Virus record (IMG/VR): IMGVR_UViG_3300025120_000040
Location: 1 to 64,000 of that record
Length of the DNA: 64,000 nucleotides
Reading direction: 5' to 3' (one strand)
Origin: a virus
How positions within the stretch are numbered: the first letter of the stretch is position 1; each line of letters opens with the position of its first letter. The position numbers and the translations under genes were made by a program. Shown piece by piece: positions 2,390 to 55,044 of the stretch. The notes beneath the pieces are model-generated. The model saw nothing but the letters and a program-made list of their open reading frames with translations. It had not been told where the DNA came from and made no database searches.

Positions 2390-2705
2390 CACTTGGGTAC
2401 AGTTGACGAAGGATTTCGTCAAGGAATGGCCGGAGGTTCTAGAGGGATTACACTTCCAGAACATGCCGGTCAAGTACCTAATGTATATCAATATCATACT
2501 AAAAAACAATCTCACTATACACTACGACATAGCCAAAGAGTTAAAAACGAAGAAGCAAGATACTATTGCTAGATTCTTAAAAAAAACGATAGAGCAAAAC
2601 TATATGAAAATAAAAAGTGTGGATATGAAGTTTAACATACCTGCTTTGAAAAGAGATATGGAATCTCGGACTTCTTTGATTATGGCTAAAACTTTTAAGA
2701 AATAG
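2361..2705 (+). CDS. Hypothetical helical protein, 114 aa
   Basis: The ATG at 2361 lies inside the 3' end of the preceding gene. Recognisably folded sequence begins about residue 10 (STWVQLTKDFVKEWPEVLEGL). The protein is basic and mostly helical, ending in a Lys-rich tail. No family is recognised. It is the last plus-strand gene of this block; its stop at 2703-2705 overlaps by 11 bases the 3' end of the oppositely oriented accessory operon, so the two operons converge with no room for a spacer terminator. Confidence 0.65.
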   Translation: MPKRQPPKNSTWVQLTKDFVKEWPEVLEGLHFQNMPVKYLMYINIILKNNLTIHYDIAKELKTKKQDTIARFLKKTIEQNYMKIKSVDMKFNIPALKRDMESRTSLIMAKTFKK

Positions 2706-3993
2706 AATTGAACTTTTCTTTCAACCATTCTAATTCATAAGACAGCATTAAGGCTTCTTTATCACCATTCACTTCTTTGTAGTATTCTACGGCATCGAGA
2801 GCACCTCTTTGTACCAGCAGTGCATATCGACCTTTACCAAGTTCACACCATTTCTTCAGTCTAAATTGAGATTGGACGGTTGGTTTCATCTCACACAATT
2901 TGAGTACTTCTCTAAATGCTACACGCCAACTTATCTCAGGTGACTGATTGAAATGACTTGTTCCACACAACTGAGGTACTACTGTGTGTGGTTGCGATAG
3001 TGTGAAATCTAAATTAGGATGTATTGTGGACAAGCAAAGACGTTTGTTGTACAATATCACCGCCCTGTGTCCGTACTCTAAACCGGTCACTGGATTTTTA
3101 GCATGGAAAATATAATGACAGGCTTCTCGCAGTCTATCAGGTTGAAAAGTGAAGTCAAACTTATCATCTAATTCTATTGTGGGGAATACTGCAAAGAAAT
3201 AATCTGTATCACTCATAGCGGCCGCAGTGTGGTACGCCTGTGTCCTTCCTTTGACTCCTTGTATTCTTTTGGCCCTAGGATATTTCTCTTTTAACACTTG
3301 CCAATACTTTTCAGCACTTGGTTCATCGTAAGACAGGAACACTATGTCCATGAGTTTTGTTTCGTAATCATAGTCAAAATGTACATGCCTATCAAAATCA
3401 TATAACTGTTTGATGCTTCTACCACTCGGTACTAGTATGATATCTTTTGTTTTACCCCAAGTATACATCTTCTCGTCTTCCCAGAAACTAGGATAAAAAT
3501 TAGGTTTGTCCACATCACAGTGTCGATTGGTCATCCATGTGTAAAATTCAGTGCCCGTGTTGTACGCATTCACTGGATCGGAAAGTTTGAACGTGGTGGT
3601 AGACAGAGGGCGTTGGAACAAAGTTGGATGAGCATGGAAGTTGATATCTTTGAAATCACGCAGGAACTTGAGGCCATGCATCTGTTTTTTGAATTCCTTT
3701 GTTGGGATCAACATCACATTGCCTTCTTGATTTAGTCCTCCCATGGGGTGCGTGGTGTACCAAACGTGAAGTTGATCACGCTCGTGCTGTTCAGGTATGT
3801 AATCTACATCAATTGTTTTTAAATCAACAAAGTTGGCAAAGAACCAGAAGTACTCTGTTTCAATATCATCCACAACTGCTTTTAGAATATCAAGGTAACT
3901 GCCAACAAATGGTACGACCCTGGTGTTCACCAGCGGTGACTCCATGTGCTTCACATGTTGGAATCTAACCTGTATACTGTCGAATCCAGTCAT
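2695..3993 (-). CDS. Glycosyltransferase-like protein with two tandem GT-A-type modules
   Basis: 432 residues. The C-terminal half (from about residue 216, IVFLSYDEPSAEKYW...) aligns by eye with the 298-residue protein at 15000-15896: 'D-I/F-V-F/Y-[IL]-S-[YF]-x-E-P', then a basic 'P-[WR]-AKR-[IV]-x-GV' and 'A...AAx...TD[YF]F'. The N-terminal half shows a weaker copy (VVDDIETEYFWFFANFVDL), suggesting a duplicated module. The second module has FPTIELD where the homologue has the DGD metal motif, so it may be catalytically altered. Role inferred: sugar transfer or glycan recognition in the surface-modification operon. It is the last gene of that operon and overlaps the upstream epimerase gene by 29 bases. 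Confidence 0.55.
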   Translation of the reverse strand: MTGFDSIQVRFQHVKHMESPLVNTRVVPFVGSYLDILKAVVDDIETEYFWFFANFVDLKTIDVDYIPEQHERDQLHVWYTTHPMGGLNQEGNVMLIPTKEFKKQMHGLKFLRDFKDINFHAHPTLFQRPLSTTTFKLSDPVNAYNTGTEFYTWMTNRHCDVDKPNFYPSFWEDEKMYTWGKTKDIILVPSGRSIKQLYDFDRHVHFDYDYETKLMDIVFLSYDEPSAEKYWQVLKEKYPRAKRIQGVKGRTQAYHTAAAMSDTDYFFAVFPTIELDDKFDFTFQPDRLREACHYIFHAKNPVTGLEYGHRAVILYNKRLCLSTIHPNLDFTLSQPHTVVPQLCGTSHFNQSPEISWRVAFREVLKLCEMKPTVQSQFRLKKWCELGKGRYALLVQRGALDAVEYYKEVNGDKEALMLSYELEWLKEKFNSIS

Positions 3994-4918
3994 AGTAATT
4001 TTCCAATCCTTGCCTCAGCGAGAACTCTGGTTCATACTCTAAGAGATCCCGTGCCCTACTGATGTCCAGTGTTCCTCTCATTGGATACAATTTGTGCATT
4101 CCTATGTCCACTATATCAGAATCACTTCCTGTGATATCTACTATTGTCTCGGCCAGCGTCCTTAGGCTGGTTGCGTTACCCGCCGTGATGTTGAAACTGG
4201 TATTGGCAACTTCTGAACTTGCGGCCTTTATGATACCATATGCGGCATCCTGCCTGTAAGTGAAGTCAACTTTGTTCTCACCATTGTGCAATTCTATTGT
4301 TTGATTGTTCATTGCCTTCGCAAAAAACTTAGATACCACCCTGTCTGGAAGATCTCCAGGTCCGTACACCCCACTGGGTCTTACTATTGTGTAATTCAGT
4401 CCATCTCTTTTGGCGAAAAGTTTTGTTAACCTCTCACCTGTAAGTTTTGCCTCGCCATATATGTTCTGCGGCTTCGTGCTTGAATCTTCCTTTGTTCCGT
4501 CTACGAAATCACCGTACACCATGCTACTGCTGATGTATACAAATTTCTTTGTGTCAAATTCAGCGGCATGCCACAGTAGGTTGGTCGTTGTTCCGATCAC
4601 CTTTGGTATACCTTCGATCGGATCTTGATCTACAATCTTGGCCCTGGGATATGTGGCCAAGTGTATCACGATATCGGGACGTGTAGAAAATGCTTTCAGG
4701 CATACCAGTCTATCGAGTACGTCGCCTTTGATCACATTGACGTTGTTTTGTGACCAGTTGCGTGTTCTCCATGCGATAAGTTTGTTCAACTCTACCTTTG
4801 TCAGTATGTCATAGGTGTCCTCATTGTCTACACATGTGATCCTGTGTCCATCATTGGAAAGTTTTTCAATTATTTTGGATCCTATGAATCCAAGTCCGCC
4901 TGTTATTAGATATTTCAT
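3965..4918 (-). CDS. NAD(P)-dependent nucleotide-sugar epimerase/dehydratase (extended SDR)
   Basis: 317 residues, normal for the GalE-like extended SDR family. The N-terminus carries the Rossmann motif GGLGFIG (residues 7-13) followed by a typical acidic CVDNED. The catalytic region has the SSSMVYG serine segment and a YGEAK (YxxxK) pair. RPSGVYGPGD is the usual substrate-side motif. The family converts nucleotide-activated sugars (C4 epimerisation or 4,6-dehydration/reduction), acting in the cytoplasm on precursors for glycan or O-antigen synthesis. It overlaps the carbamoyltransferase gene by 4 bases (ATGA), suggesting a sugar that is epimerised and then carbamoylated. The exact substrate cannot be read from sequence. 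Confidence 0.85.
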   Translation of the reverse strand: MKYLITGGLGFIGSKIIEKLSNDGHRITCVDNEDTYDILTKVELNKLIAWRTRNWSQNNVNVIKGDVLDRLVCLKAFSTRPDIVIHLATYPRAKIVDQDPIEGIPKVIGTTTNLLWHAAEFDTKKFVYISSSMVYGDFVDGTKEDSSTKPQNIYGEAKLTGERLTKLFAKRDGLNYTIVRPSGVYGPGDLPDRVVSKFFAKAMNNQTIELHNGENKVDFTYRQDAAYGIIKAASSEVANTSFNITAGNATSLRTLAETIVDITGSDSDIVDIGMHKLYPMRGTLDISRARDLLEYEPEFSLRQGLENYYDWIRQYTG

Positions 4919-6387
4919 CCTAGAACTTTTACCCCGTATTTGTTGGTAAACGCTTTACCGTCTTCTCTATCGTTTACGATCGGTTGTCCTTTTATGTTCA
5001 GACTGGTGTTCAAAAGTATCGGGCAACCCGTCTGTTTTTTCCATTCCGTTAACAAAGCATGAAACCCTGGATTATCCGTCTTACGCACCGTTTGAACCCT
5101 AGAAGTGTGATCATGATGTATTATGGCAGGGAAGTCTTTACCAGCAGTACACGCCGCTGTAAATTGCATATAAGGGGTGTTTTGAACTGCTTTAGGCAGG
5201 GTGAAATACTCGTGTACATCCTCTTCCAATATGGCCGGAGCGAACGGTCTGAACTTCTGTCTTTTCTTTATTGAGTTTACCAAATCCTTGATGTCCTCAC
5301 CCCTGGGGTCTGCCAACAGTGATCTATTACCAAGTGCCCTAGGGCCAAACTCCGCCCTGCCACTTGCCACTCCCACCATCTTGTTTTCCTTCAATTCTTT
5401 TATCAGACTGTCCACAGGGTATTCACCATCTATGTTGTGTCCAAGGAATGGGTGTTCCCACTTGAGGTGTCTCTTGTGGTGTGCGGCTATGCAACCCAGG
5501 CTAGATCCCGAATCTCCAGGGTTGGGTATTATCCATATGTTGTCAAACAATCCTAGATTCGCAAGTGTTCTGTTTGCGGCACAGTTCAACGCTACTCCGC
5601 CAGCGTATACTAGATTCTTACTGCCATACTTGGATGCCCTCAGGAAGAGGTCTGCAAGTATTTCCTCCGTGACTGCCTGTATGCTCGCGGCAATGTCCAT
5701 AACATCTGCTTCTGGATGCCAGTCTTTCAATCCTCTGTGTAAATTCTTCTTAAGTTTGAACGGTGACTGATAAACGAAGTCATCGTATATCTGTTGTTTG
5801 TACTTTGGTGTGCCATATGCGGCCATGCCCATCAGGATGTATTCCTCTTCTGCAGGTTTCAGTCCACAACGGTGTGTGAATGCAGAATATAATATGCCCA
5901 CCGAGTGTGGATAGTTGATTGTTTCTTTCCTCTCGATCCAAATTTTATCAGCAGTGGATATGCTGACTGTCTCCCATTCGCCTATCGCATCAACTGTTAG
6001 AATAGTTGCACCTTCGTCTTTGAACGGCGACGTGAAATATCCTGCCGCGGCGTGTGAGTCATGATGTTTAACATACTCGTCGATTTTGATGTTGAACATA
6101 TCCAAATGCCACTGTGGCATCTCTGTATAACTTAATGCTGTCCCCCACTGTCCTGCATACAGTTGTCTCGTTTTCTTTAACAGAGGCTTCTCATAGTAAA
6201 CGACTTTGTCGAATGGTCCGAATGTGTTTGCTTCATTTACTATTGCCCAATTTAAGTAATGATCATTTTTAACTTTTGAATAACGTTCCGAGTGTGCGGC
6301 CCATAATATCTCACCTATGCCTGAACTGTAATCAACAACACTCATAGAAGCATCATGATTCATACAGTTTATTCCTAATATTTTCAT
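4915..6387 (-). CDS. O-carbamoyltransferase, NodU/CmcH family
   Basis: 490 residues, shorter than the usual 550-620 of the family. The N-terminal Kae1-like half begins with GINCMNHDAS and carries HHDSHAAAGY and GGVALNC metal/ATP-site motifs. The C-terminal YrdC-like half carries GRAEFGPRALGNRS and RFRPFAPAI, diagnostic of the family. Family members transfer a carbamoyl group from carbamoyl phosphate, through carbamoyl-adenylate, to a sugar or other hydroxyl. Here the acceptor is probably a glycan made with the neighbouring epimerase. Both key halves appear intact; the shorter length seems to come from trimmed loops. ATGA overlaps on both sides. Confidence 0.9.
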   Translation of the reverse strand: MKILGINCMNHDASMSVVDYSSGIGEILWAAHSERYSKVKNDHYLNWAIVNEANTFGPFDKVVYYEKPLLKKTRQLYAGQWGTALSYTEMPQWHLDMFNIKIDEYVKHHDSHAAAGYFTSPFKDEGATILTVDAIGEWETVSISTADKIWIERKETINYPHSVGILYSAFTHRCGLKPAEEEYILMGMAAYGTPKYKQQIYDDFVYQSPFKLKKNLHRGLKDWHPEADVMDIAASIQAVTEEILADLFLRASKYGSKNLVYAGGVALNCAANRTLANLGLFDNIWIIPNPGDSGSSLGCIAAHHKRHLKWEHPFLGHNIDGEYPVDSLIKELKENKMVGVASGRAEFGPRALGNRSLLADPRGEDIKDLVNSIKKRQKFRPFAPAILEEDVHEYFTLPKAVQNTPYMQFTAACTAGKDFPAIIHHDHTSRVQTVRKTDNPGFHALLTEWKKQTGCPILLNTSLNIKGQPIVNDREDGKAFTNKYGVKVLG

Positions 6388-6821
6388 TTACTATGTGGTC
6401 CTATGTTGCCGTGCTTTTCTAATATATCCTGCTTGATCAAGAACGCCCACATTGTTGCTTCCATGTGTCCCACTTTGAAATCGTAGTGTGTTGGTTCTAC
6501 AAACATTTTGTTTGTGTCCTCGAATCTACCTTCTTTGATCGTGTCCATCCATACTGTGTAATCTGCATCAAATTCTGTTCTTGTTTGATCTGTCGGACAA
6601 ATAAAATCTGCTATCACGACTCTATTTTTATCAATGGCTTCCTCCGCAAATGACCACATCCTCAACGACTGCCTCTTTCTACCTTCGGGTGAAAAGTCCC
6701 AATCGTCTGCTTCCTTCCTAACTTCATCTGCATTCAACCATACAGCATTGAACATAGGCACCAGTAATTTTGCCAAAGTTGTCTTACCTGATCCAGGCAA
6801 ACCCATTATCAGTATCTTCAT
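6384..6821 (-). CDS. Small P-loop kinase, adenylylsulfate-kinase-like
   Basis: 145 residues. Walker A is GLPGSGKT at residues 8-15. WLNADEVRKEADDWDFSPEGRKRQSLRM resembles the substrate-binding segment of CysC/APS-kinase-like proteins, and VVIADFICPTDQTR resembles the following strand. It is shorter than bacterial CysC (about 200), and the late part after residue 90 is atypical. It may phosphorylate APS or another small molecule; the true substrate is uncertain. It lies between the carbamoyltransferase and the outer-membrane-like gene with 4-base ATGA overlaps on both sides, so it is co-translated with the glycan genes. Confidence 0.7.
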   Translation of the reverse strand: MKILIMGLPGSGKTTLAKLLVPMFNAVWLNADEVRKEADDWDFSPEGRKRQSLRMWSFAEEAIDKNRVVIADFICPTDQTRTEFDADYTVWMDTIKEGRFEDTNKMFVEPTHYDFKVGHMEATMWAFLIKQDILEKHGNIGPHSK

Positions 6822-7153
6822 CTACCTATCTCCCATCCTATTACCACACCGTAATTCTCTTTGCCGTTGTGCTTTTCGTATGCTGGGGAAATAAACAATC
6901 CTCCTGCTTTGTATCTGATCATTGGAAGTATGTCATTTGATTTGTAACCTGTCACAAGTCCTAATTCAATGTTCCAAAACTCATCTAATTCAAACTCCTT
7001 GCCAACATATGCACTAATCCTGTCCTCAGAATTGTAATACACCCCTGCAATCGAATTATCCACTGTGCATCTTGCGTGTGGGTGTATGTTGTTGTAGTCC
7101 GCTTCTAGGCCCACATGCATGGACAGTGCCAAAAATAATCCTAAACAATTCAT
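6818..7153 (-). CDS. Small secreted, outer-membrane-like beta protein
   Basis: I chose the ATG at 7153 because it forms an ATGA overlap with the upstream acetyltransferase stop; the same frame is open further upstream without a better start. The 111-residue product begins with a short hydrophobic signal-like segment (NCLGLFLALSMHVGLEA). The rest alternates hydrophobic and polar residues in strand-like blocks (SIAGVYYNSEDRISAYVG, NIELGLVTGY, GGLFISPAYE, YGVVIGWEIG), as in small beta-barrels. It could be exported to the infected cell's outer membrane, for example to alter receptor access, but that is inference. Similar small proteins are known from marine T4-like phages with no assigned function. 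Confidence 0.6.
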   Translation of the reverse strand: MNCLGLFLALSMHVGLEADYNNIHPHARCTVDNSIAGVYYNSEDRISAYVGKEFELDEFWNIELGLVTGYKSNDILPMIRYKAGGLFISPAYEKHNGKENYGVVIGWEIGR

Positions 7154-7707
7154 CTTATGCTGAACCATCCCTTCGCCCTGTCTCTGAACTTCTCCCATTC
7201 ACTCAACTCTATATCATATTCAAAATTTTGTGTGGTTAAATTAACCTGCACTTCCTTGGCTCCGTTCTTTAGATGGAACTTTCTTGCCATGTCTGTGAGC
7301 GGACTCAGTGTTACTAGCCTGTTGAGATGATTGCTTTCTTTGATCATCTTGTACACTTCGTTGACCATGTGCTTACCGCCGCCTTTCTTCTTGGCCCACA
7401 CCGTGTAGGCTATTGCCACGCTACCCTGTACGCCTGCCCTGTGTACTGCCTGCATGGCGGCATCTTTGCTTAACTTGTCCATATCCTCAACACTCTCCGG
7501 TATACCGTGTGTGAATGCGAAACACATAACGGCCGCTATATCGCCCTCTTCGTCCTTGATTCCGTATATCTTCCTGCCGTACGCCTGCCTGAATTCCAGA
7601 CTCAGTTCCGGCCTCACAGGATCTTCCGTCACATCTATGAACGGCAGTTCCATCAGTTCGAACTTAGGTTTCTTTTCCAGAACCTGTTTAATTTTTGCCA
7701 GTACCAT
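7150..7707 (-). CDS. GNAT-family acetyltransferase-like protein
   Basis: 185 residues. The central region has a strand (VAIAYTVWA) followed by KKKGGGKHMVNEVYKMI, resembling the acetyl-CoA pyrophosphate-binding motif A (R/QxxGxG/A) of GNAT enzymes. It is followed by the C-terminal SPLTDMARKFHLKNGA segment typical of GNAT motif B. The expected reaction is transfer of an acetyl group from acetyl-CoA to an amine or hydroxyl. The substrate is unknown; in this operon an amino-sugar or a peptide made by the radical SAM group are both possible. It begins just upstream of the 34-residue ORF's stop and ends in an ATGA overlap. Confidence 0.65.
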   Translation of the reverse strand: MVLAKIKQVLEKKPKFELMELPFIDVTEDPVRPELSLEFRQAYGRKIYGIKDEEGDIAAVMCFAFTHGIPESVEDMDKLSKDAAMQAVHRAGVQGSVAIAYTVWAKKKGGGKHMVNEVYKMIKESNHLNRLVTLSPLTDMARKFHLKNGAKEVQVNLTTQNFEYDIELSEWEKFRDRAKGWFSIR

Positions 7708-7708
7708 T

Positions 7709-7813
7709 TTATTTGTATATGAATGGGTCTTTCTTCTTTAATTCTTTTAATCTTTTCCTGTAAGCTCTTTCCTGTTTGAACTTCAGCCAAAGATTTTTTA
7801 TCCATGTGAACAT
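7709..7813 (-). CDS. 34-residue basic microprotein
   Basis: The ATG at 7813 follows a strong GGAGG ribosome site and overlaps the preceding gene's TAA by one base (TAATG). The stop lies one base before the next ATG. The peptide starts MFTWIKNLWLKFKQ and continues with a highly charged Lys/Arg/Glu helix, so it is strongly basic and amphipathic and could be membrane- or RNA-associated. The tight fit between two genes and the good ribosome site argue for translation. In a radical SAM operon a short peptide could conceivably be a modification substrate, but it has no Cys and no recognisable leader/core pattern. Confidence 0.55.
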   Translation of the reverse strand: MFTWIKNLWLKFKQERAYRKRLKELKKKDPFIYK

Positions 7814-8604
7814 TATTTTCCTCCTGTTAATTTATTAAACATTGGTAACATTAATTTTACAGCATCTCGGTGTGCTTCGTCAAGTGGATGTGTAGTGGCT
7901 CTGGGATAATCTTCCATCAATGTCCATTGATTGAAACCCATCATCCTTGGTCCAAAACTAAACCATTTGGTAAAATCTATTTCATCGTGTAGTGCCTTCA
8001 TGAAATTATCCTGGTCTTTGTGCTGTTCAAACTCCTTGTAAAACAGGCTGTTGTCTGCTAGTGTGAACAAGAATGGTATTTGCTTCTTCTCAAGTATGTT
8101 CTGTAACCAGATAATGCTCTTCCAACTGAGATAGGTCTCATGATATTGGTTTGCACCGTGCTTGTATATGGCTTCTGCGAACGGTTGCACTCCGGTCTCA
8201 ACCATTGAGTCTGCTCTACGTTTCCATTGTTCCAATTGTACTTCTGATCCTGCAAGTGCTTGATGTCTTTCATCACTTGCCATTTTTGTATCCCATGGCG
8301 ATATTGTTGTCCAACGTGTCTTTTCTAAGTCCTTGTGCCTGGACATGGCCCAGTCATACCTGGAGAGGAAACTCCACATCACTATCACACACCCTATATC
8401 ATCATTGTTGTGGACTGCATCAAATACACGCCTGGCTATCCCCGAGTTGCCACTGCCTGGGTGTGCCGTACATACATATTCATGATCTGTTGGCTTTAGC
8501 CTGTATGCCCATGATTTTTTGCTTGGCACTTTGCCATTTTGGTCGTCACTCAACTCATGACCAAAAGTGAAACTACAACCACCTGCTATTAATTTTTTAC
8601 TCAT
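7813..8604 (-). CDS. SGNH-type hydrolase/esterase
   Basis: 263 residues. The N-terminus carries GGCSFTFGHEL, a block I type nucleophile segment with Ser11. GSGNSGI around residue 50 supplies the block II/III-like Gly and Asn, and HPLDEAH near residue 245 matches the block V DxxH pair. Family members remove or transfer acyl groups on glycans and lipids. With the GNAT and glycosyltransferase genes it suggests O-acyl editing of a surface polysaccharide. No signal peptide is seen, so it probably acts in the cytoplasm. It overlaps the first radical SAM gene by 8 bases and the 34-residue ORF by one. Confidence 0.7.
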   Translation of the reverse strand: MSKKLIAGGCSFTFGHELSDDQNGKVPSKKSWAYRLKPTDHEYVCTAHPGSGNSGIARRVFDAVHNNDDIGCVIVMWSFLSRYDWAMSRHKDLEKTRWTTISPWDTKMASDERHQALAGSEVQLEQWKRRADSMVETGVQPFAEAIYKHGANQYHETYLSWKSIIWLQNILEKKQIPFLFTLADNSLFYKEFEQHKDQDNFMKALHDEIDFTKWFSFGPRMMGFNQWTLMEDYPRATTHPLDEAHRDAVKLMLPMFNKLTGGK

Positions 8605-9775
8605 ATATCTGTAATACTTTATTTAAAAGTGGAAACATATCACCAAAATTTTCTTTCCTATACTGATCTGTTTGCAATATTCTTCTTTTTCTTTCTGCAC
8701 GTATCTCCGGAGAGTCTCTGTCAGCGGCGTTCATGAATCTTATGCTTGGTTGGTAGTCTGTGAGCATGTTATACCTGTCTGTGACTATGTCCTTTACCTG
8801 CCGTGGTAATGTCTGTATGTTGAACACATCAGGATCAAAGCAAGTGTTCACATAAAAGAACTTAGGTTGGAACTGTGCCACCCACAATGCCATCTTGGCC
8901 CAATTGAACACATTGAATATATTCACTGTTGAACATATTTGAAAGTCCATGTTAGGTGTTTTCATTTCTTTAAACTTAACAAGATTCTGGTTCACTTCTC
9001 TCCACTTTGCAGGATGTCTTTGATACTCGAAAGGTTCTCCCACGTCATCAATGCTGAACGCTACTTCCACGTGCTTGAAACAACTCCATAGGTCGAATAT
9101 TTCCTGTGGTGGTAACTGTGTGCCGTTGGTGTTGTAGTGTATGTCTATGTTCTTGGCATATCCCTTCTCGACACAGTGCATCAGTATTTTAAAGTGGTCC
9201 TTGATCATGAACGGTTCGCCGCCTGTGAATTCAAAGTACTCCACATATTTTAGATCCTCCTGCAACTCCTCAAAAAATTGTGGGTTACGTTTTGGCCACC
9301 CGCCTTCTTTCAATTGTTTTCTAGCAACAAGATTATCTCCTCCCTTGGCCGTTTCATAATCTATTTCTTCCTGAGCCCATTTTGATGAACTCCATGATCC
9401 GCATATCCTACATTTTAAATTACACACGTTGCCCAACTTAAAGTCAATAAACTTGAGGGATGGCTCGCTATTAGGTGTCCAGTTTTCTAAACTGCTACGC
9501 ATTTTGTAGATCGAGTTTTGTCTTTTGGATGTTTTGCCAGCGTCTTCCTCCTGCCAACAGCTCTGACAACCTTTAGGACGTTCACCGTTTCTAAATTTTG
9601 TTCTAAGATTGTCCATGTATTCCGTATCTTGTATAGACTTAAGACTTTGTTCGTACACTTTGACACCAGGAATACTGCCCTTGTACAAACAGCAAGGAGA
9701 CGCACCACCATTTACATCAACTTCTAAATGATTCCACGGTAATGGGCATATGTTTGAATCTATATACTTGTCCAC
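8597..9775 (-). CDS. Radical SAM protein with N-terminal SPASM/twitch-like domain (copy 1)
   Basis: 392 residues. The radical SAM cluster motif CNLKCRIC has Cys118, Cys122 and Cys125, and FTGGEP is the SAM-contacting GGEP motif. Before it lies an auxiliary-cluster-like module with Cys10, Cys28-Cys29, Cys70 and Cys73, in the pattern C..PW...CC...CxxCW expected of SPASM/twitch domains, which normally sit at the C-terminus. The C-terminal region has no comparable Cys group. The family cleaves S-adenosylmethionine to make a 5'-deoxyadenosyl radical; SPASM/twitch members often modify peptides or sugars. It shares the EYQRHPAKW signature with the copies at 52 and 55 kb. It is the last of five in tandem. 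Confidence 0.85.
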   Translation of the reverse strand: MDKYIDSNICPLPWNHLEVDVNGGASPCCLYKGSIPGVKVYEQSLKSIQDTEYMDNLRTKFRNGERPKGCQSCWQEEDAGKTSKRQNSIYKMRSSLENWTPNSEPSLKFIDFKLGNVCNLKCRICGSWSSSKWAQEEIDYETAKGGDNLVARKQLKEGGWPKRNPQFFEELQEDLKYVEYFEFTGGEPFMIKDHFKILMHCVEKGYAKNIDIHYNTNGTQLPPQEIFDLWSCFKHVEVAFSIDDVGEPFEYQRHPAKWREVNQNLVKFKEMKTPNMDFQICSTVNIFNVFNWAKMALWVAQFQPKFFYVNTCFDPDVFNIQTLPRQVKDIVTDRYNMLTDYQPSIRFMNAADRDSPEIRAERKRRILQTDQYRKENFGDMFPLLNKVLQIYE

Positions 9776-11043: not shown

Positions 11044-12313
11044 ACAATTCCTTCAATTCAGGAAATGTTTCAAGGATATTTTCGTCTCTGATCACGTCCA
11101 TCTTTTTCATTGTGTCTTTGAACTGTTGCATGTCTTTGCTGTTGTCTCTTCTCATCATGTAGTCCAACCCAGATTCAAATCCCTTGGTTGCCCTGGTGAG
11201 ATTATCTAGAGGACGCAACCATTCTAGGTGTGACTCGATCTTCTCTTTGACTCTTTGTTTGTATGAGTCTGGTAAAAGATCAATCCTCTGTGCGTATGGA
11301 TACTGCAATAAGTTGAAGTTGAAATCTTGTGGTTTCAATAATCCTTGATCTACCCAATTCCTGTGGAAGTCTGATATGTGTAATGCATTTATAAGTCCAA
11401 CTGTGCTTGATATGTAGAAGTCTACTTGCGGACAAACTTCTAACATACGTTTCCTGTTTGCTATTACGTCTTTCCACACAGTGCCTTTACGCATGTATTC
11501 TCCCCTGGCACCTTCTGCGTCTAGACTTGCACCTATCGATACTGAATCAAACTTGTTCCATAATTCCAACACGTCAATGTCTTTGTATTTTGTTCTTGTG
11601 AAGTTTGTGTTGTAAATTAATCTCACGTGATACATCTTACGTCTGTCCAATTCTTTTAATATCCTGTAGTGTTCTTCCATGATTATTGGTTCGCCACCTG
11701 CGAAGTAAAACTGTTCCACATGTTCGAACTGTTCCAACATCTGATCCCATATGTCATTACTGCTACGGCCAACTTTCATTATCTTCGCATGATTGGGAGG
11801 AGAACCTGTAAGTTTTTTGTGATCTTCATACCAATTACTGCTGAACCATGTACCACAACTTCTACACGCTAGGTTACATAGGTTACTGAATCTTATATCC
11901 CAATACTTTATGACGAAATCTGCTGTGCCATCTTCCTGTGTGTTCTCAACCATACCTATGTTGTGTCCAAAGTGTTTGTTCGAACTTAGACGCAGTGAGA
12001 AGAACCCCGACTTCTCTTGATCATAACATTTCGTACAATGTTTGCTTGGCTTTGCGGCCAGCATGTTTTTCCTTATACCCTTCATCTCATCGTTGTTAAA
12101 GACTTCTTCCATTGAATTCTTGTTAAGATCACCAACAGGATATTTGTCCAATGCAAAACAACAAGGGTACGCTCTACCGTCAGGGAAAGCATGTATGTGC
12201 AACCATGGCATCATACAGAATGTGTCATTGTCTATCAACAACTCCTTCTCTTTAGGAGTCATATCTTTGATCTTTAGTTTCTCAGGCTCTTTGGCGCCAT
12301 AATCATATGCCAC
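11030..12313 (-). CDS. Radical SAM protein with N-terminal SPASM/twitch-like domain (copy 3)
   Basis: 427 residues. The cluster motif CNLACRSC has Cys146, Cys150 and Cys153; GGEP is FAGGEPIIM. Its N-terminal module is the most SPASM-like of the set: FCMMPW (Cys33), FPDGRAYPCC (Cys51-52), then VGDLNKNSMEEVFN, which matches the G-[ND]-L-...-S-[LM]-xE-[IV][WF]-N spacer usual in SPASM domains, then CTKC (Cys93, Cys96). GARGEYMRKGTVWKDV is the late signature, diverged from YIRDGL. No Cys group lies in the C-terminal third. It overlaps both neighbours by 11-14 bases. Confidence 0.85.
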   Translation of the reverse strand: MAYDYGAKEPEKLKIKDMTPKEKELLIDNDTFCMMPWLHIHAFPDGRAYPCCFALDKYPVGDLNKNSMEEVFNNDEMKGIRKNMLAAKPSKHCTKCYDQEKSGFFSLRLSSNKHFGHNIGMVENTQEDGTADFVIKYWDIRFSNLCNLACRSCGTWFSSNWYEDHKKLTGSPPNHAKIMKVGRSSNDIWDQMLEQFEHVEQFYFAGGEPIIMEEHYRILKELDRRKMYHVRLIYNTNFTRTKYKDIDVLELWNKFDSVSIGASLDAEGARGEYMRKGTVWKDVIANRKRMLEVCPQVDFYISSTVGLINALHISDFHRNWVDQGLLKPQDFNFNLLQYPYAQRIDLLPDSYKQRVKEKIESHLEWLRPLDNLTRATKGFESGLDYMMRRDNSKDMQQFKDTMKKMDVIRDENILETFPELKELYEEN

Positions 12314-13646
12314 TATACCATTCTCCTATTATTGGGAAAGTCTTTTCGAAGTTCTTTCCTGATCTTTTGTCGTATTGACTGTAAAACGCTTTGAAGTCTT
12401 TCTGTAGTTTACTTTGTTCGGCCGCACCTGCATGTGGTGTTTTGACAACATCTAAATAATCTATAAGTCTCTGTGTTTGGTTAGTTTCCATATGTTCTAG
12501 ATGTTTTTCATTGTTATTTAAAAACTTTACCAAGTCTCCTTTAAATTTATTTCTTAGGTCATCGGGTAGCACAAGAGGTGATTGGAAGCTCGGGAACCGT
12601 AATATGTTCAATGTAAAGTTGACCTTCGGTCCATACACCTTACTTGCACTCTTGAACCATATTATCCTCTCTAGCAGTTCTGGCAACGACTCTAAACACA
12701 GTGCATTTATGGTACACATATTATGAATCTCTGATGGGACTTTATCAACCATCATGTGTAAGAAATTTGAGAACCATTCGCCGTAATCTAATCCGTCTCT
12801 GATGTATTCGCCTTGTTTGTGTGTTGCTTCCATGCTGGTATACAGATGAAAGTTTTTAAATCCTTTTAGTTTAGTTTTGAATCTATCAATAATGCTTTGC
12901 TTTGCACCCAGGTTAGAGTTGATTGCAATACGTATATCAGGATTCATTTTTTCACCTTGTGTTTCTATCCAATCTAACAGTCTCCACAAGTTGGGTGACA
13001 TCATAGGTTCTCCACCTGTTATCCTCAGTTCATCTAAACTCTTGTGTAGGTCCGTTTCCCACCATTTGTAAAATGCTTCCACGTACGGATTTGTTTCGTC
13101 TTTCTTGTATGGCTCTGCACTTTCATGACTGTGTGTGAAGTGATTACGCCCATCTGTTTTCATATCTGTGTATGGTCCTTGCCTCTTGATATTGTTTGCC
13201 CACGTAGAACTAAATGCAGGATTACAATATGTACAAGCAAAGTTACAGGTCCTATCGAATGCTATCTCCAGTGTCTTTAGATTGACATCTGTGTCAGCAT
13301 CAGTTTTGTGTGCGTAGTCCAATGCTTCGTTTGTGAATATTTTTGATTTGTAGACCCTGTCGCTAATATTATCTCTTTTGATATCTTCTATCTTCCAGCA
13401 GTATTCACACCCTTTTGGTCTGTCGCCGCACTGCATCTGTTTACGTTCTGCTTTCTTTTGTACTGTGTTGTGTATTGCACTAGGATTTGTTTTTATTGCT
13501 TCAAGATCAATCTTGTGCGGAAGTGGATGGTGACAACTTGTGGTCATACCACTACCCAACCATATTGTTGCATTATACCATTTGGCTCCGCAGAAACTTG
13601 CTGACTTAGGATCCAGTATTTGTTTTTTATATTCTAAATCGTTCAT
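12303..13646 (-). CDS. Radical SAM protein, divergent subfamily (copy 4)
   Basis: 447 residues. The cluster motif CNFACTYC has Cys134, Cys138 and Cys141, followed by NPAFSSTWA; GGEP is ITGGEPMMS. The N-terminal module differs from copies 1-3: FCGAKW (Cys19), then SCHHP (single Cys38 with two His) instead of CC, then GCEYCW (Cys80, Cys83). HKQGEYIRDGLDYGEW is the family signature. It is closely similar to copy 5 by eye along its length, so the two probably arose by duplication. One Cys replaced by His/Pro suggests a different auxiliary cluster or a structural zinc site. Confidence 0.85.
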   Translation of the reverse strand: MNDLEYKKQILDPKSASFCGAKWYNATIWLGSGMTTSCHHPLPHKIDLEAIKTNPSAIHNTVQKKAERKQMQCGDRPKGCEYCWKIEDIKRDNISDRVYKSKIFTNEALDYAHKTDADTDVNLKTLEIAFDRTCNFACTYCNPAFSSTWANNIKRQGPYTDMKTDGRNHFTHSHESAEPYKKDETNPYVEAFYKWWETDLHKSLDELRITGGEPMMSPNLWRLLDWIETQGEKMNPDIRIAINSNLGAKQSIIDRFKTKLKGFKNFHLYTSMEATHKQGEYIRDGLDYGEWFSNFLHMMVDKVPSEIHNMCTINALCLESLPELLERIIWFKSASKVYGPKVNFTLNILRFPSFQSPLVLPDDLRNKFKGDLVKFLNNNEKHLEHMETNQTQRLIDYLDVVKTPHAGAAEQSKLQKDFKAFYSQYDKRSGKNFEKTFPIIGEWYSGI

Positions 13647-15013
13647 GCGTTTTTACACTCCTCCCAGAATTCTTCCATCTCAGGGAAAGTGTTCAATAAG
13701 TTTGTTTGTCTTCTCCGATCGTGTTCGTTAAAAAATGCGTAAAAATTCTTTTTTTGTTGCGTACTTACGTCCGTGTTTTCTCGCCAGTATGCGAGATTGC
13801 GTTGCATTTTTTGAATCTCGAAGTCCTTGAATATGTGTAACCCGTTGTCCTCCCCGGAATGGTTCTGCATGTACTTAATGTTATCCTCATGTATGCTCTG
13901 GTACGCCTCCGGTAGCATCGTGATCTGTTGCCATGCGGGTTGCCTCAGCAGTGGCACATCGAACCACACTCTCTGGTAGGTCTTTGAGTACTTGGTACGC
14001 AGTTCCAATATTTTCTCCAGCAGTTTATCCATGCTCGTGATACTTAGATTGTTGTATGTGCATATGAATGTGATGGAATTACGACCCGGGATCCTGTCAA
14101 GAAACTCCTCCACGTTGTCCATCATGTAGTTGAAATCCAGGCCGTCACGTATGTACTCCGCACGTTTGCCAAATGCGTCAACTGACACGAACTGCATCAT
14201 GTGTTCAACCTTCTCCTGCATACATATCTCCTGTGCCATGTTGAAGTACTTCTCTTTCAACTTCTTGTCTGGTGGACACATGTTACTGGTCACGTTGAGG
14301 TGCAGATCTTGTTTGGGATGATCTATTATGTACTGGAAAACCTTGTAGGTGTTCACGTCCATCATGGGTTCACCACCGGTCATACGGAAGTGCTTTAAAT
14401 TCTTGTACAGTGTTGGCCACCACTTCCAGAAAGCGGTCACGTAAGGGTTCTCCTCCCTGTTGGGTATGGGCTTCCTGCGACCTTGGAAGTGCTCTGGTGC
14501 GTTGTGGGAAGGGGTGGTAGGATATTCGCCGTATCTGTCCACCTCCTTGGCCCACGTGGTCGAGAACTGTGGTGAACAATAACTGCACTTGAAGTTACAA
14601 GCGTTGTTGAAGTTCACCTCCACGTATCTCGGCGTCCAATGTTCGTCTATTGGATTCTTTCTAATATCCTCGAAGTCCTGCATGGCCCATGGCTCACCAG
14701 ACCTGTAGTGCCTGTCTGACATCTCCCCGGTCTTCTCCATGTTCCAGCAGTATGAACAACCCTCGGGTTGTTCTCCCTGGAGCATCTGTTGTCGTTGATT
14801 CATTTTCTCTGCGGTGTTGTGCAGTGCGGCTGGATTGTTTTTCAACTTCTCTGCATCAATGTTGTGCAATGGTGGATGATAGCAACTGTTGGTCAGTCCC
14901 GTGGGCAGGTGCAGTGAGGTCTGATTCCACTTGGCCAGGCACATGGTAGGAGAAACTGTCTCGAGTATTTCCTTGGCCTTCAATGCGTCCTGTTTGTAGT
15001 TACTGGTACTCAC
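13643..15013 (-). CDS. Radical SAM protein, divergent subfamily (copy 5)
   Basis: 456 residues. The cluster motif CNFKCSYC has Cys139, Cys143 and Cys146, followed by SPQFSTTWA; GGEP is MTGGEPMMD. The N-terminal module reads MCLAKW (Cys25), SCYHP (Cys44) and GCSYCW (Cys86, Cys89), the same pattern as copy 4. GKRAEYIRDGLDFNYM is the late signature. It overlaps copy 4 by an ATGA and the glycosyltransferase-like gene upstream by 14 bases. The DNA appears richer in G and C than copies 2-4 by eye, which might indicate a different age or origin; this was not computed. Confidence 0.85.
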   Translation of the reverse strand: MSTSNYKQDALKAKEILETVSPTMCLAKWNQTSLHLPTGLTNSCYHPPLHNIDAEKLKNNPAALHNTAEKMNQRQQMLQGEQPEGCSYCWNMEKTGEMSDRHYRSGEPWAMQDFEDIRKNPIDEHWTPRYVEVNFNNACNFKCSYCSPQFSTTWAKEVDRYGEYPTTPSHNAPEHFQGRRKPIPNREENPYVTAFWKWWPTLYKNLKHFRMTGGEPMMDVNTYKVFQYIIDHPKQDLHLNVTSNMCPPDKKLKEKYFNMAQEICMQEKVEHMMQFVSVDAFGKRAEYIRDGLDFNYMMDNVEEFLDRIPGRNSITFICTYNNLSITSMDKLLEKILELRTKYSKTYQRVWFDVPLLRQPAWQQITMLPEAYQSIHEDNIKYMQNHSGEDNGLHIFKDFEIQKMQRNLAYWRENTDVSTQQKKNFYAFFNEHDRRRQTNLLNTFPEMEEFWEECKNA

Positions 15014-15896
15014 GGTCTTGCACTCCCTTGTTTATGTGCGGAGGGATGACGAACCGATAGAACCTGCTGTCATCGTCATCGTACTCCGCAATTGGCATGT
15101 CCAGTTGTTGCCTCAGGCTGTTACCGTACATCAACAGATCTGTGTCTATGTCTGTAGGTGACTGATCCTTGTAGTACAACTCCATGTTATCCAGATCACG
15201 TATCTTGAAATGCTCATTTTTGGCCTCTATCACTGTGTTGAAACAACCCATCCTCGCTCCCAACATGGCGTACTTGCCAAACTCTACGTCTGCACCCACT
15301 GTACACCAAGTGCTGAGTGTCCTCAGATTAGTCGGCCACACTTTTTGGAAATCATTGGCAGGTATGGGTTTGCCTTTGTTCGTACTCATTTTTACACCCT
15401 CCCTGAAGCCTGCCACAAAGGCCTGCTGTTCAGAACCATTTATTATGGTAGTGGAGTAACAGTTATGCAGATTCTCATGTGGCACACCCCAGCAGAAATC
15501 TATCTGGTTCTCCTCCGAGTCAGCATTCTCGTGTGTCCTCATGTTCAAGCACGTTTCCTTTGACCAACCAACTAGTCCTCCATTACCGTACACTAGCCCA
15601 TTAATGTTATTTTTTGCTCGCCAACGATGAACTGCCTTGGGATCGGTCTTCGTCCAATCTAGGGTTTGTAATAAAAAAGTTTCATCAATAACGTTGTCAC
15701 CGTCAACACTTATAAAGAAGTCGGTCTCTGCCAACTCGGCCGCGGCCTTATGGGCGTTGTCAAACCCCACAACACCATCAACACGCTTGGCCCATGGCAC
15801 CTTGTTCTTGAGATCCGCCCAATTCTCTTCCTTGTTGGGCTCCTTGAAACTGATGTACACGAAGTCCAGTTCGCTTATTCTCGTTCTATCAGCCAT
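15000..15896 (-). CDS. Family-2-like glycosyltransferase (GT-A fold)
   Basis: 298 residues. LDFVYISFKEPNKEENW begins a GT-A Rossmann-like unit, and ETDFFISVDGDNVIDETF contains the DGD (DxD) nucleotide-sugar/metal motif near residue 65. It resembles each module of the 432-residue protein at 2695-3993 but keeps DGD intact, so it is the more likely active enzyme. The late region is rich in aromatic residues and ends VIPPHINKGVQ. Expected reaction: transfer of a sugar from a nucleotide donor; acceptor unknown. It overlaps the downstream radical SAM gene by 14 bases and the upstream gene by 22. Confidence 0.65.
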   Translation of the reverse strand: MADRTRISELDFVYISFKEPNKEENWADLKNKVPWAKRVDGVVGFDNAHKAAAELAETDFFISVDGDNVIDETFLLQTLDWTKTDPKAVHRWRAKNNINGLVYGNGGLVGWSKETCLNMRTHENADSEENQIDFCWGVPHENLHNCYSTTIINGSEQQAFVAGFREGVKMSTNKGKPIPANDFQKVWPTNLRTLSTWCTVGADVEFGKYAMLGARMGCFNTVIEAKNEHFKIRDLDNMELYYKDQSPTDIDTDLLMYGNSLRQQLDMPIAEYDDDDSRFYRFVIPPHINKGVQDREYQ

Positions 15897-16177
15897 GCTT
15901 TGCCTCCTTCCACTATTCCTGTGGGCCAGTGTATGTCATCGTCTTGGAACACATATCCTTTTTTTGCTTCTTTTAAAACGCTGTATTGTGTTTTTGGTTT
16001 TGGCTTTGGCTTCAACACTATCTCACCATCTTTGATCATTAGCTCTTCTTCATTGTACTGTAGTGCCCACAACTTCTTGTCATGGGTCACTTCGTGTTCT
16101 ACGCCATCAACAGTCACAAAAAGTTTCCTAGGTTCTCTCTTTGGCAGATTCGCCATTGCCTCAAAAAATCCTGGCAT
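15875..16177 (-). CDS. Hypothetical protein, 100 aa
   Basis: I chose the ATG at 16177 because AAGGAG sits 4 bases upstream; the frame is open a little further up and an internal ATG lies at 16156. The product has a strand-rich segment with a VTVDGVEHEV turn, a KPKPKPK linker around the middle and an aromatic/acidic C-terminus (GYVFQDDDIHW). I recognise no family. Overlap with both neighbours indicates it is part of the accessory operon. It may be a small accessory subunit of the adjacent glycosyltransferases. Confidence 0.5.
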   Translation of the reverse strand: MPGFFEAMANLPKREPRKLFVTVDGVEHEVTHDKKLWALQYNEEELMIKDGEIVLKPKPKPKTQYSVLKEAKKGYVFQDDDIHWPTGIVEGGKAWLIERE

Positions 16178-16955
16178 GTAACTCCTTGTTGTGATAGTGC
16201 CAAACTCTGCTGACACGTGTTTCGCCTATGTACACTGCATCTCCGGATCTGTTGGGATATAGATATTCGTTTTGATCCTTTGCCCTCATGGTATTGTTTA
16301 CACCTGGTTTGTGATGAATGAATTTAAACCAATCATAATCTATAAGATCACAGGCAGTAGGATCCATAATCCTATATGCCAACGCAAACACCACGTCTGT
16401 GCTAGGGTATTCGTCATGACACGAAATCAACATCTGTGTTTTGACCTGTTTCCAATTCTTCACTATGTGTTCTGCTATCTCATAGAATTTCTTTGCTTTT
16501 GCACTCCTACGGAAATACATCAATCCATTGTAGATATTGGGTAAATGGTTCCTCATGAACAATTTCCTGTATGGCGTTTGTTTTACAACATTGTCCCGGT
16601 AGTCAAAACAGTCAACACTGAATACTAAATCGTGTTGCCACAGGTGATTCCACCACCAATCAGTGTTTGTGGTCCACAACATGTCCGCCTCCAATTTTAT
16701 TGTGTGTGTAAAAGGTGTGAGACGGAACGCTTTGTACTCGTTCGCCCATTTGATATCGTGCAAGGCACTGTCGTCTTCCCCTATGACTTTCACTACGTCA
16801 ACGTGTTCGCTGGAAAATTTACTTGATTGATCTGTCACCACACATACCTTGTTGTTTTTGTTCCAACGTTTTATGCTCTTGGCCAAAGTTATAGACAGTT
16901 CCACATAATCAACTTTGCCATTGTTCTGTGCGAACCAAAGAAATCCTTTAGACAT
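16161..16955 (-). CDS. Glycosyltransferase-like protein (GT-A, EAD metal motif)
   Basis: I chose the ATG at 16955, preceded by AAGGAG and overlapping the upstream stop by 8 bases; an upstream extension of 28 residues has no good start signal. 264 residues. The N-terminal strand and DYVELSITLAKSIKRW helix are followed by VCVVTDQ. HTIKLEADMLWTTN contains an acidic DxD-like EAD motif, as in families that use a nucleotide-sugar donor. NIYNGLMYFRRS and STDVVFALAYRI resemble acceptor-side segments of the same fold. The next gene upstream has the same layout, so the two are probably paralogues or partners. Acceptor unknown. Confidence 0.6.
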   Translation of the reverse strand: MSKGFLWFAQNNGKVDYVELSITLAKSIKRWNKNNKVCVVTDQSSKFSSEHVDVVKVIGEDDSALHDIKWANEYKAFRLTPFTHTIKLEADMLWTTNTDWWWNHLWQHDLVFSVDCFDYRDNVVKQTPYRKLFMRNHLPNIYNGLMYFRRSAKAKKFYEIAEHIVKNWKQVKTQMLISCHDEYPSTDVVFALAYRIMDPTACDLIDYDWFKFIHHKPGVNNTMRAKDQNEYLYPNRSGDAVYIGETRVSRVWHYHNKELHARIF

Positions 16956-17700
16956 TGAATATCTCCTTGTTGAGTACATGGACATCTTGATTTTGTACAC
17001 AGGATATCTGATCATTGTATTTCCATGCAATACCTTCATTGGTCATCTCAACCACTTCGCAGTCTGGCGGCAGTGTTGCCAATGCAAATGGCATCTTTTC
17101 GTAGCCCACAAATCCGTTTATCTGTTGCAGTGCCATTGCGAACAGATAGTCATTACGTAGATTCTTGGCATATATCCTGTACATCTCGTTGAAGTAATTG
17201 TAGTTCTTCTTTATGTATTTTACCGTGTCAAATATCTTTCTGGTCTTTTCGTTTTTCTTGAACAGTAGCACAGTCGCCCACACCATGGGTATCATGCTCC
17301 ACTTCCTTTGATCAAACGTGTTCCTGCCTGTCAGATCATATGCTGTGTCTGGCACAAGGAAATCATATTCTGTGTCAAAGAGCTCTAACAAGTTGTCCGT
17401 GAAACAGAAATAATCGATGTCCATCACAAGCGTCTTGTCGTATGGAGAAAGTTCGTAGGCAAGATGCCTATCTACATTGTTCCAAGATTTTCCCAGTTTG
17501 GTGTTACCCAGTTCTGGTTCAATGAATTTGTAATTTATAAAGCCCAATGGTTTGATTTTACAGAAAGTTTCAAAGTTAGTCACTACGGTGATTTCTACTT
17601 TGAGATTTTTCTTTACTAGGGCCACACACCTCTCCAGTATCTTGTGATACCGTGTGTGTTCTGTGTCAAAACAGAATAGTAATACTCCTTGCGTCATCAT
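16948..17700 (-). CDS. Glycosyltransferase-like protein (GT-A, DID metal motif)
   Basis: 250 residues. It starts at the ATG at 17700 in an ATGA overlap with the upstream gene. TLVMDIDYFCFTDNL is a clear DxD segment, with PDTAYDLTGRNTF and WATVLLFKKNEKTRKIFD following as in GT8-like or capsular sugar transferases. The order of segments matches the 264-residue protein downstream, including the late acceptor-side DYLFAMALQQINGF. It probably adds a sugar to the operon's glycan product. Cytoplasmic; no signal or membrane helix. Confidence 0.65.
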   Translation of the reverse strand: MMTQGVLLFCFDTEHTRYHKILERCVALVKKNLKVEITVVTNFETFCKIKPLGFINYKFIEPELGNTKLGKSWNNVDRHLAYELSPYDKTLVMDIDYFCFTDNLLELFDTEYDFLVPDTAYDLTGRNTFDQRKWSMIPMVWATVLLFKKNEKTRKIFDTVKYIKKNYNYFNEMYRIYAKNLRNDYLFAMALQQINGFVGYEKMPFALATLPPDCEVVEMTNEGIAWKYNDQISCVQNQDVHVLNKEIFNV

Positions 17701-18014
17701 TCACCTTTTTTTGTAAAAGTTTCGTATATTTGGTGATATGCGTTCAAGGCCTCCTGGTTCCGTTCAATCAATCTTGCTAGGAAATCGTCTGCGTCTGTTA
17801 TCTCAACTGGATTTTTATTTGTGTCCAGTATGAAAAACTTACTGCTGTTTTCCTTTAGTGTCCTCACAAGACATATTGTCCCAGGATCGGCACGGAAAAG
17901 ATTTCCATTATATGCCAGTACCTGTCGTGAGTGTGCTTTCTCCAGAGCGTTGCGTTTTGCGATCGCTATGTCGTAAGAAAGATCTGATTGTTTTTTGAGT
18001 TCGCGAATATCCAT
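17697..18014 (-). CDS. Conserved small protein, first gene of the accessory operon
   Basis: I chose the ATG at 18014 (MDIRELKKQSDL...) over one 15 bases upstream because the upstream codons fall within the -10 to +1 region of the promoter. 105 residues: a charged N-terminal helix (LKKQSDLSYDIAIAKRNALEKAHSRQ), a strand-rich middle (GTICLVRTL, KFFILDTNKNPVEI) and a C-terminal helix. I recognise a phage-conserved look but no function. Translation may begin with almost no leader, because the -10 hexamer ends only 6 bases before the start codon. It overlaps the next gene by ATGA. Confidence 0.6.
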   Translation of the reverse strand: MDIRELKKQSDLSYDIAIAKRNALEKAHSRQVLAYNGNLFRADPGTICLVRTLKENSSKFFILDTNKNPVEITDADDFLARLIERNQEALNAYHQIYETFTKKGE

Positions 18015-18020
18015 ACCACA

Positions 18021-18049
18021 ATTATACAATAATTATGGTTAAATTTCAA
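18021..18049 (-). promoter_or_regulatory. Strong sigma70-type promoter of the accessory operon
   Basis: On the minus strand: TTGAAA (18049-18044), exactly 17 bases, then a perfect TATAAT (18026-18021). The predicted start is at or next to the ATG at 18014, so the first message may be leaderless or nearly so. No late octamer is present. It would drive the whole 2.7-18.0 kb minus-strand operon with host polymerase, independently of the late virion genes just upstream. Confidence 0.7.
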
Positions 18050-18065
18050 CCTGGTAAAATTATTA

Positions 18066-55010: not shown

Positions 55011-55044
55011 AAACCCTCGGCTTTTACGAGTCGGGGGTTTTTTT
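55011..55044. terminator. Bidirectional rho-independent terminator
   Basis: CCCTCGGCT and AGTCGGGGG form a nine-pair stem with two G-U pairs, flanked by A-rich and T7-rich tracts. It ends the Hc1-like gene in the plus direction. Read the other way it lies right after the stop of the radical SAM gene at 55043, so it can serve both. Confidence 0.8.

Follow-up and report, generated by a model that had tools for sequence, protein, structure and literature searches.

The serotype-converting gtr operons of temperate phages, which encode membrane proteins and a bactoprenol transferase, exemplify a phage-encoded change of the host O-antigen. Among marine phages, the host recognition cluster of the pelagimyophages is flanked in a SAR11 myophage by VrlC and gp14 and contains fibres and GT8-type glycosyltransferases, with radical S-adenosylmethionine (SAM) cassettes added between two phages; in the available excerpts of that account the authors propose that the host surface is changed against co-infection (PMC7029224). 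A T4-like environmental genome, TARA_ERS488813_N000010, carries 12 radical SAM genes (PMC5332604). As far as these excerpts go, the general idea of transferase and radical SAM cassettes near phage fibres is thus already known. Here we analyse a related run of genes, referred to as the cassette, in a 64 kb stretch (the window) of the 64,891-base virus record IMGVR_UViG_3300025120_000040. The source is a marine, T4-like phage in which genes for a baseplate wedge, a tail lysozyme, a late sigma factor, a portal and an SbcC/D-like nuclease were recognised. The cassette probably remakes a surface sugar of either the host cell or the virion.

The locus resembles the pelagimyophage cluster in being a fibre-adjacent island with transferases and radical SAM genes in a T4-like marine phage, the position beside fibres being the only aspect of its location that is seen here. 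In contrast, the excerpts of that account describe no fixed core order, no arrays of N-terminal-twitch radical SAM enzymes, no carbamoyltransferase and no separate promoter (PMC7029224). With TARA_ERS488813_N000010 the locus shares an origin in a marine T4-like phage and an abundance of radical SAM genes; the available part of the paper treats these as Fe-S metabolism, giving no link to glycans (PMC5332604). Cyanophages and pelagiphages encode NodU/TobZ-type carbamoyltransferases with the same domains as the window enzyme; 145 isolate phage records match it at E ≤ 1e-5, with at most 45% identity among the matches listed. The gtr operons would be comparable as a phage-encoded change of the host O-antigen if the cassette acts on a host glycan, but they encode multi-pass membrane proteins, whereas the maximal 19-residue hydropathy across the 17 cassette proteins is 1.25 and no membrane helix is predicted.

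The cassette consists of 17 same-strand open reading frames (ORFs) on the minus strand (2695-18029) and adjoins fibre-like genes at 18066-26259. A preliminary description of this DNA had proposed that glycan genes and radical SAM genes are translationally overlapped between 2695 and 18014 and make one product. It was right as to coordinates and gene content: the ATG of the first gene lies at 18014, the longest ORF extending to 18029 from a TTG. With the longest ORFs, 15 of the 16 junctions overlap by 4 to 92 nt, the sole gap being the 105 nt between the SGNH-like and GNAT-like genes (7708-7812). The P-loop kinase, the PagP-like protein and the small proteins u110 and u113 had not been listed. 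All five radical SAM genes of the run exceed the 170-bit cut-off of the NF033640 profile (N_Twi_rSAM), as do two further genes of the window, R6 and R7. The 16 cassette genes tested, u113 being left out, are under strong purifying selection with a ratio of nonsynonymous to synonymous substitution (dN/dS) of 0.02-0.13, which indicates that the cassette is more than a chance assembly.

Table 1. Features of the cassette and of related genes in the window, ordered by position.
Feature	Position	Strand	Assignment and remarks
GT432	2695..3993	-	tandem GT-A-like glycosyltransferase (predicted); AlphaFold2 pLDDT 85
epimerase	3965..4918	-	NAD-dependent sugar-nucleotide epimerase/dehydratase (SDR); PF01370 144 bits, E 5e-42
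carbamoyltransferase	4915..6387	-	NodU/TobZ-type O-carbamoyltransferase; PF02543, PF16861
kinase	6384..6821	-	P-loop small-molecule kinase, APS-kinase-like; PF01583 E 1.8e-8; phrog_10255 4e-29
PagP-like	6818..7198	-	partial profile match, phrog_3600 E 5.1e-8, residues 22-106
GNAT-like	7150..7707	-	unconfirmed; label from motifs
SGNH-like	7813..8604	-	unconfirmed; label from motifs
R1	8597..9775	-	N-terminal-twitch radical SAM; NF033640 365 bits; CxxxCxxC intact
R2	9760..11043	-	N-terminal-twitch radical SAM; NF033640 322 bits; CxxxCxxC intact
R3	11030..12313	-	N-terminal-twitch radical SAM; NF033640 415 bits; AlphaFold2 pLDDT 91
R4	12303..13646	-	N-terminal-twitch radical SAM; NF033640 300 bits; CxxxCxxC intact
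R5	13643..15013	-	N-terminal-twitch radical SAM; NF033640 327 bits; CxxxCxxC intact
GT298	15000..15896	-	putative GT-A glycosyltransferase; invariant DGDN motif
u113	15875..16216	-	small protein; in 36/47 complete loci
GT292	16161..17039	-	putative GT8-like glycosyltransferase; probably begins near 16955
GT250	16948..17700	-	putative glycosyltransferase; homologue of GT292
u110	17697..18014	-	first cassette gene; small soluble protein
sigma70-like promoter	18021..18049	-	TTGAAA-17-TATAAT; -10 ends 6 nt before the u110 ATG (18014)
s318	18066..19022	-	fibre-like, adjoins cassette; late word upstream; distance correlations 0.48-0.64 with u110, GT250, GT292
R6	52238..53314	+	N-terminal-twitch radical SAM outside cassette; NF033640 202 bits
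R7	55043..56077	-	N-terminal-twitch radical SAM outside cassette; NF033640 179 bits

Scans with R3 and with the carbamoyltransferase gave 62 and 60 viral loci, respectively. The five radical SAM genes are all present in 53 of the 62 R3 loci, the other nine being cut by contig ends, and in each of the 47 loci whose sequence runs from GT298 through to the carbamoyltransferase. These 47 loci also contain GT292 (47), GT250 (46), the SGNH-like gene (45), u110 (44), matches to the epimerase and to GT432 (41 each, some of them just 30-40% identical), u113 (36), the GNAT-like gene (32), the kinase (12) and the PagP-like gene (7). Accessory genes inserted in the runs of relatives encode a DegT aminotransferase, a PIG-L deacetylase, a Gfo/Idh/MocA oxidoreductase and a methyltransferase. 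A thioredoxin-reductase-like gene is inserted in the cassette at L018:9957-10949 and in seven further loci (an 8-member cluster), and might perhaps supply reductant.

Because these loci were found via R3, the 47/47 count is biased towards linkage, and a scan with GT298 was therefore run without requiring a radical SAM gene. It yielded at least 577 relatives; the best 80 were kept and 11 close loci (L183-L193) set aside, leaving 69 distant loci with 41-47% identity to GT298, among which near-identical contigs were kept in. GT250 and GT292 are found in all 69, u110 in 64, a fibre protein in 62 and GT432 in 37; the carbamoyltransferase and the epimerase occur in five each. A radical SAM gene, called here and in the portal-control, outside-cassette and K566 scans by a purpose-built profile at 100 bits or more and not by NF033640, is present in 52 of the 69 distant loci; when 17 loci with less than 5 kb of downstream sequence are set aside, it is present in 45 of the remaining 52. 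In total, 120 radical SAM matches were counted in 1,156 kb of the distant loci versus none in 892 kb around 80 portal genes, a rough background since this control samples a conserved structural region and 61 of its 80 loci are under 15 kb.

Across the distant phages the order is constant, GT298 being followed by the radical SAM array. The constant core is fibre-u110-GT250-GT292-GT298; the number of radical SAM genes varies, and carbamoyltransferase and epimerase are inconstant. Three records with alternative cassettes (G004, G006, G008) keep the core order and contain 11-16 NF033640 matches at E ≤ 0.001. The linkage of radical SAM and transferase genes is real, and the co-occurrence in related phages that the preliminary description had suggested looking for is what we found, both in the 47 complete and in the 69 distant loci. 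The core is spread among uncultured phages: GT298 and GT292 have zero matches in 50,697 isolate phage records at E ≤ 1e-5, R1 matches three isolate records, and a search of isolate phages at the DNA level gave no match. Three contigs with R1 from metagenome-assembled genomes (MAGs) look phage-like and were binned with three different taxa.

The radical SAM proteins R1-R7 share the invariant cysteines C118-C122-C125 (CxxxCxxC) together with C10, C28, C70 and C73 (R1 numbering). Their alignment (A1) was tried and discarded as a scan query, the divergence being too great. The R3 model consists of a radical SAM barrel and an N-terminal cluster domain, and its best Foldseek matches are radical SAM enzymes.

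Four glycosyltransferase-like proteins had been announced, and this part stands for two of them and stays tentative for GT292 and GT250. GT432 is modelled as two GT-A-like domains, with a Foldseek list led by K4 chondroitin polymerase (E 5e-6); the best solved matches are glycosyltransferases, with low TM-scores (about 0.2). VIA-align gives Z of about 10-11 over residues 158-348 and 1-129, and nucleotidyltransferases of the same fold also match. The model thus has a GT-A fold. GT298 and the C-terminal half of GT432 are homologues (hhalign P 99.4, E 1.6e-21), and the putative GT-A assignment of GT298 comes through this modelled relative. GT292 matches glycogenin weakly in a PDB profile search (E 0.026) and is homologous to GT250 (hhalign P 97.8, E 1.2e-12). 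The four proteins therefore represent two families, one supported by its predicted fold and one tentative. PDB profile searches gave no credible sequence relative for GT298, GT250 and GT432, and Pfam at E ≤ 1 on distant transferase relatives gave nothing useful. In two loci GT432 matches follow directly after the carbamoyltransferase, in ORFs of 2,185 (L124:6285-12842) and 2,113 residues (L128:11494-17835).

The promoter-like sequence upstream of u110 is the best sigma70-like site in positions 1-20000 of the window (11/12). It is conserved: 38 of 42 distinct upstream regions of related loci, identical ones being counted once, score at least 9/12, a value that random 70-mers reach in 8% of cases, and 36 keep the 6-nt spacing. 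With such a short spacing transcription is predicted to start at the ATG, and hence to give a leaderless mRNA. By eye, L065 and L147 have TTGAC(A/C)-17-TATAAT-N6-ATG and L163-L166 do not. Of 56 distinct distant upstream regions, 29 reach a score of 9 or more and 21 a score of 10 or more, slightly inflated values as the best of several candidate ATGs was taken; here a leader with a GGAG-like sequence is often found. In 33 of 41 distinct loci the 70 nt preceding s318 contain the word ATAAATA, which we take to be of the T4-late type. For s61 this holds in 16 of 33, and in the close group the word was not found upstream of u110 or any other cassette gene. By inspection, none of the six minus-strand copies in the window is farther than about 57 nt from the start of a structural gene; ATAAATA also occurs in 5 of the 56 distant upstream regions. 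A sigma70-like site without late word at the cassette, and a late word at the fibres, lead to the prediction that in this group the cassette is expressed early or middle and the fibres late; so at least it looks from the promoter words. Early expression would favour an action on the host without proving it. R3 is also preceded by a promoter-like match in 23 of 46 loci, which lies inside conserved coding sequence. Inverted repeats overlap the promoter-like site in several loci. We do not claim an operator or RNA hairpin here: their mean perfect stem is 5.7 versus 4.2 in shuffled sequence and is partly a by-product of TATAAT/AATTAT.

The NF033640 family is rare in bacteria, being found at E ≤ 1e-20 in 2/385, 2/274, 1/33 and 4/398 genomes, counts that contain repeats between searches and include two MAGs whose phage-like contigs were starting points. 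Four independent bacterial loci pass the NF033640 cut-off and three of them adjoin polysaccharide genes. In L159, Wzm/Wzt, RmlD and RmlC border one end of an array of four tandem radical SAM copies, and TylF, a second methyltransferase and WbsX border its opposite end. An 854-residue ORF (L159:8579-11143) joins ABC_tran and Wzt_C, the O-antigen exporter ATPase, to SPASM and Radical_SAM domains; this fusion could be an assembly error. L145 adjoins an epimerase, a family 2 glycosyltransferase and, by eye, a gene resembling a methyltransferase, and L160 an epimerase and a family 2 glycosyltransferase. In its tandem N-terminal-twitch radical SAM genes, embedded among surface polysaccharide genes, the O-antigen cluster L159 resembles the phage locus; it differs in that it is bacterial, encodes ABC export together with a Wzt fusion and has no phage fibre genes.

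We favour early remodelling of a host surface glycan by the cassette, while giving it about an equal chance of being right or wrong, and judge in the same way the whole of our best explanation, in which the run is one transcription unit with its own sigma70-type promoter instead of the T4-late-type promoters of the fibre genes. The soluble proteins GT250, GT292, GT298 and GT432 would add sugars drawn from host and phage nucleotide-sugar chemistry, the supply being assisted by the epimerase and in relatives also by the aminotransferase, the deacetylase and a sugar dehydrogenase. Each of R1-R5 would perform a single radical step on the sugar or on what carries it, be it an oxidation, an epimerisation, a dehydration or the formation of a new bond; capping of the sugar would fall to the carbamoyltransferase and possible acyl enzymes. 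The likeliest acceptor would be a host surface glycan remade in infection, so that the receptor is changed and other phages are excluded. From the preliminary idea of one joint product we retain a joint glycan-tailoring pathway, which has good support from the conserved synteny, the bacterial polysaccharide clusters and the Wzt fusion; a single fixed pathway does not fit the varying gene content. The computation itself shows the gene layout, the linkage, a conserved promoter-like sequence, purifying selection and the families to which the radical SAM, carbamoyltransferase and epimerase genes belong. That a single product is made, with a glycan as substrate and the host surface as target, is what we infer.

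Several points weigh against an action on host glycans. The top solved relatives of R3 in Foldseek are the peptide maturases CteB, anSME and SkfB, not sugar enzymes, with viperin, BlsE and MoaA lower among the matches. With this ranking the R3 fold gives no substrate name, and genomic context is a better guide than fold: it offers transferases, enzymes of sugar-nucleotide chemistry, a carbamoyl cap and perhaps an acyl one and, in bacteria, polysaccharide export genes. Seven of the 52 distant loci with sufficient downstream sequence have the transferases without a radical SAM gene, and no polysaccharide gene adjoins the bacterial locus L146. Ten radical SAM genes lie outside the cassette in the stretches of two long records that were read; four of them neighbour an epimerase directly or at a distance of one gene, and six have no glycan-family match within three ORFs. 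Independence of radical SAM genes from glycan genes, named in advance as the pattern that would speak against a common product, was not found for the cassette genes themselves, although members of the family do exist outside the cassette. Furthermore, no flippase, polymerase or membrane-anchored transferase was recognised among the 17 cassette proteins. As no membrane helix is likely either, the product would be confined to an altered existing host glycan or a cytosolic protein such as a fibre. Finally, the core nearly always adjoins fibre genes (62/69), which fits virion decoration as well.

In that alternative, the transferases would glycosylate the adjacent Ser/Thr-rich s318, whose glycan would be tailored by the radical SAM, carbamoyl and acyl enzymes; the product would coat the virion and change or shield adsorption. 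We regard it as a serious rival, though rather unlikely. Besides the neighbouring fibre genes, it could draw on GT292, whose weak match glycogenin is a protein-glycosylating enzyme, and on pairwise distance correlations in 38 dereplicated loci plus the window. The block s318-u110-GT250-GT292 co-diversifies with correlations of 0.48-0.66 and is weakly tied to the backbone gene s542 (0.06-0.33), while GT298, R5, R4, R1 and the SGNH-like gene track s542 (0.62-0.82) and R2 and R3 track no gene (0.02-0.25). We take these values to mean that a specificity block of fibre and transferase genes is exchanged, as are single radical SAM alleles; physical linkage explains a part, and adjacency by itself can yield co-diversification. 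The Ser+Thr content of s318 is 27% versus 12% in the portal protein, but other fibre proteins are equally rich, and we have rejected this as proof of fibre glycosylation. Decoration of the virion is also at odds with the sigma70-type promoter of the cassette, which has no late motif whereas s318 has one, and with the bacterial radical SAM relatives in polysaccharide export clusters. R2 and R3 (9760-12313) form separate allele classes, swapped independently of the remaining operon.

Such independent exchange would also suit a hypervariable fibre region that merely gathers unrelated cargo, with radical SAM enzymes modifying peptides, tRNA or metabolites each on its own account. R6, R7 and the ten genes outside the cassette in the two long records point in this direction, as do the peptide maturases at the head of the solved folds and the Vibrio phage K566, which has tandem radical SAM genes and no transferase match in the 29 kb read. 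Unrelated cargo would, however, hardly keep the order of GT298 and then radical SAM genes in distant phages, or overlapping genes, or recur in a bacterial O-antigen context with a Wzt fusion, and we hold this explanation to be improbable. As regards a cluster for ribosomally synthesized and post-translationally modified peptides (RiPPs), in which a precursor peptide gene adjoins the radical SAM gene, the overlapping genes leave just the one gap of 105 nt, ORFs of at least 60 aa being considered. A viperin-like small-molecule or antiviral-nucleotide chemistry against co-infecting phages, suggested by weak viperin-family profile matches of R1-R5 and by viperin folds among the R3 matches, is most improbable given that those matches fall well short of the 180-bit viperin cut-off, that the NF033640 scores are about 12 to 20 times as high and that the neighbours are sugar enzymes.

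Returning to glycan tailoring, we tentatively extend it to a broader proposal, which we think slightly more apt to fail than to hold: N-terminal-twitch arrays might serve general surface-glycan tailoring in uncultured T4-like phages and in some bacterial O-antigen clusters, taking serial radical steps on a polysaccharide- or nucleotide-bound sugar, with R2, R3 and s318-u110-GT250-GT292 exchanged as specificity parts. If true, this would give a function to a radical SAM family that so far has a structural name alone, and surface sugars would join the substrates of twitch/SPASM-type radical enzymes. Abundant uncultured phages might then rewrite host receptors via a gene set that has not turned up in cultured ones. 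Thanks to the clean core order, the idea lends itself to a direct test through expression of single genes. In the literature searched we found no account of this core order, of its spread in uncultured phages without isolate match or of the separate promoter, nor of the bacterial O-antigen parallel with a Wzt fusion.

Among the remaining cassette genes, the epimerase and the NodU-type carbamoyltransferase (PF02543 7e-42, PF16861 1e-54) bear out their earlier labels. The carbamoyltransferase matches decarbamoylnovobiocin carbamoyltransferase (PDB 9s2t, E 4e-52); its HHDSHA, VDAIGE and PGDSG motifs align with the solved enzyme, and both Carbam_trans_N and Carbam_trans_C are present. The HxxxH and two Asp residues in its N-terminal domain presumably form the metal site. 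It fails the NodU equivalog NF041651 (147.7 bits versus a cut-off of 1000). The epimerase matches UDP-glucose 4-epimerase (PDB 4zrm, E 6e-29) and reached no equivalog cut-off in the library search. The GNAT and SGNH labels could not be confirmed, since library searches with the window proteins gave no convincing match, nor did PDB profile searches with the GNAT-like protein. In the SGNH-like protein G8, G9, S11, G50, G52, N53 and H239 are invariant in 16 sequences; it has no Pfam match, and a distant relative matches DUF6071. A related carbamoyltransferase followed directly by a radical SAM gene is found in the single-cell Marine virus AG-345-D19 (L182, MH319727.1, 5979-7950).

Near R7, a 275-residue protein (53331-54158) contains an SK-x8-GxRW stretch, which we take to resemble the lysine site of pyridoxal phosphate (PLP) aminotransferases; in L097 and L120, 275-residue proteins likewise adjoin the radical SAM genes. 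A single ORF of 4,265 residues (26269-39066) separates the baseplate wedge gene of the window from its fibre genes.

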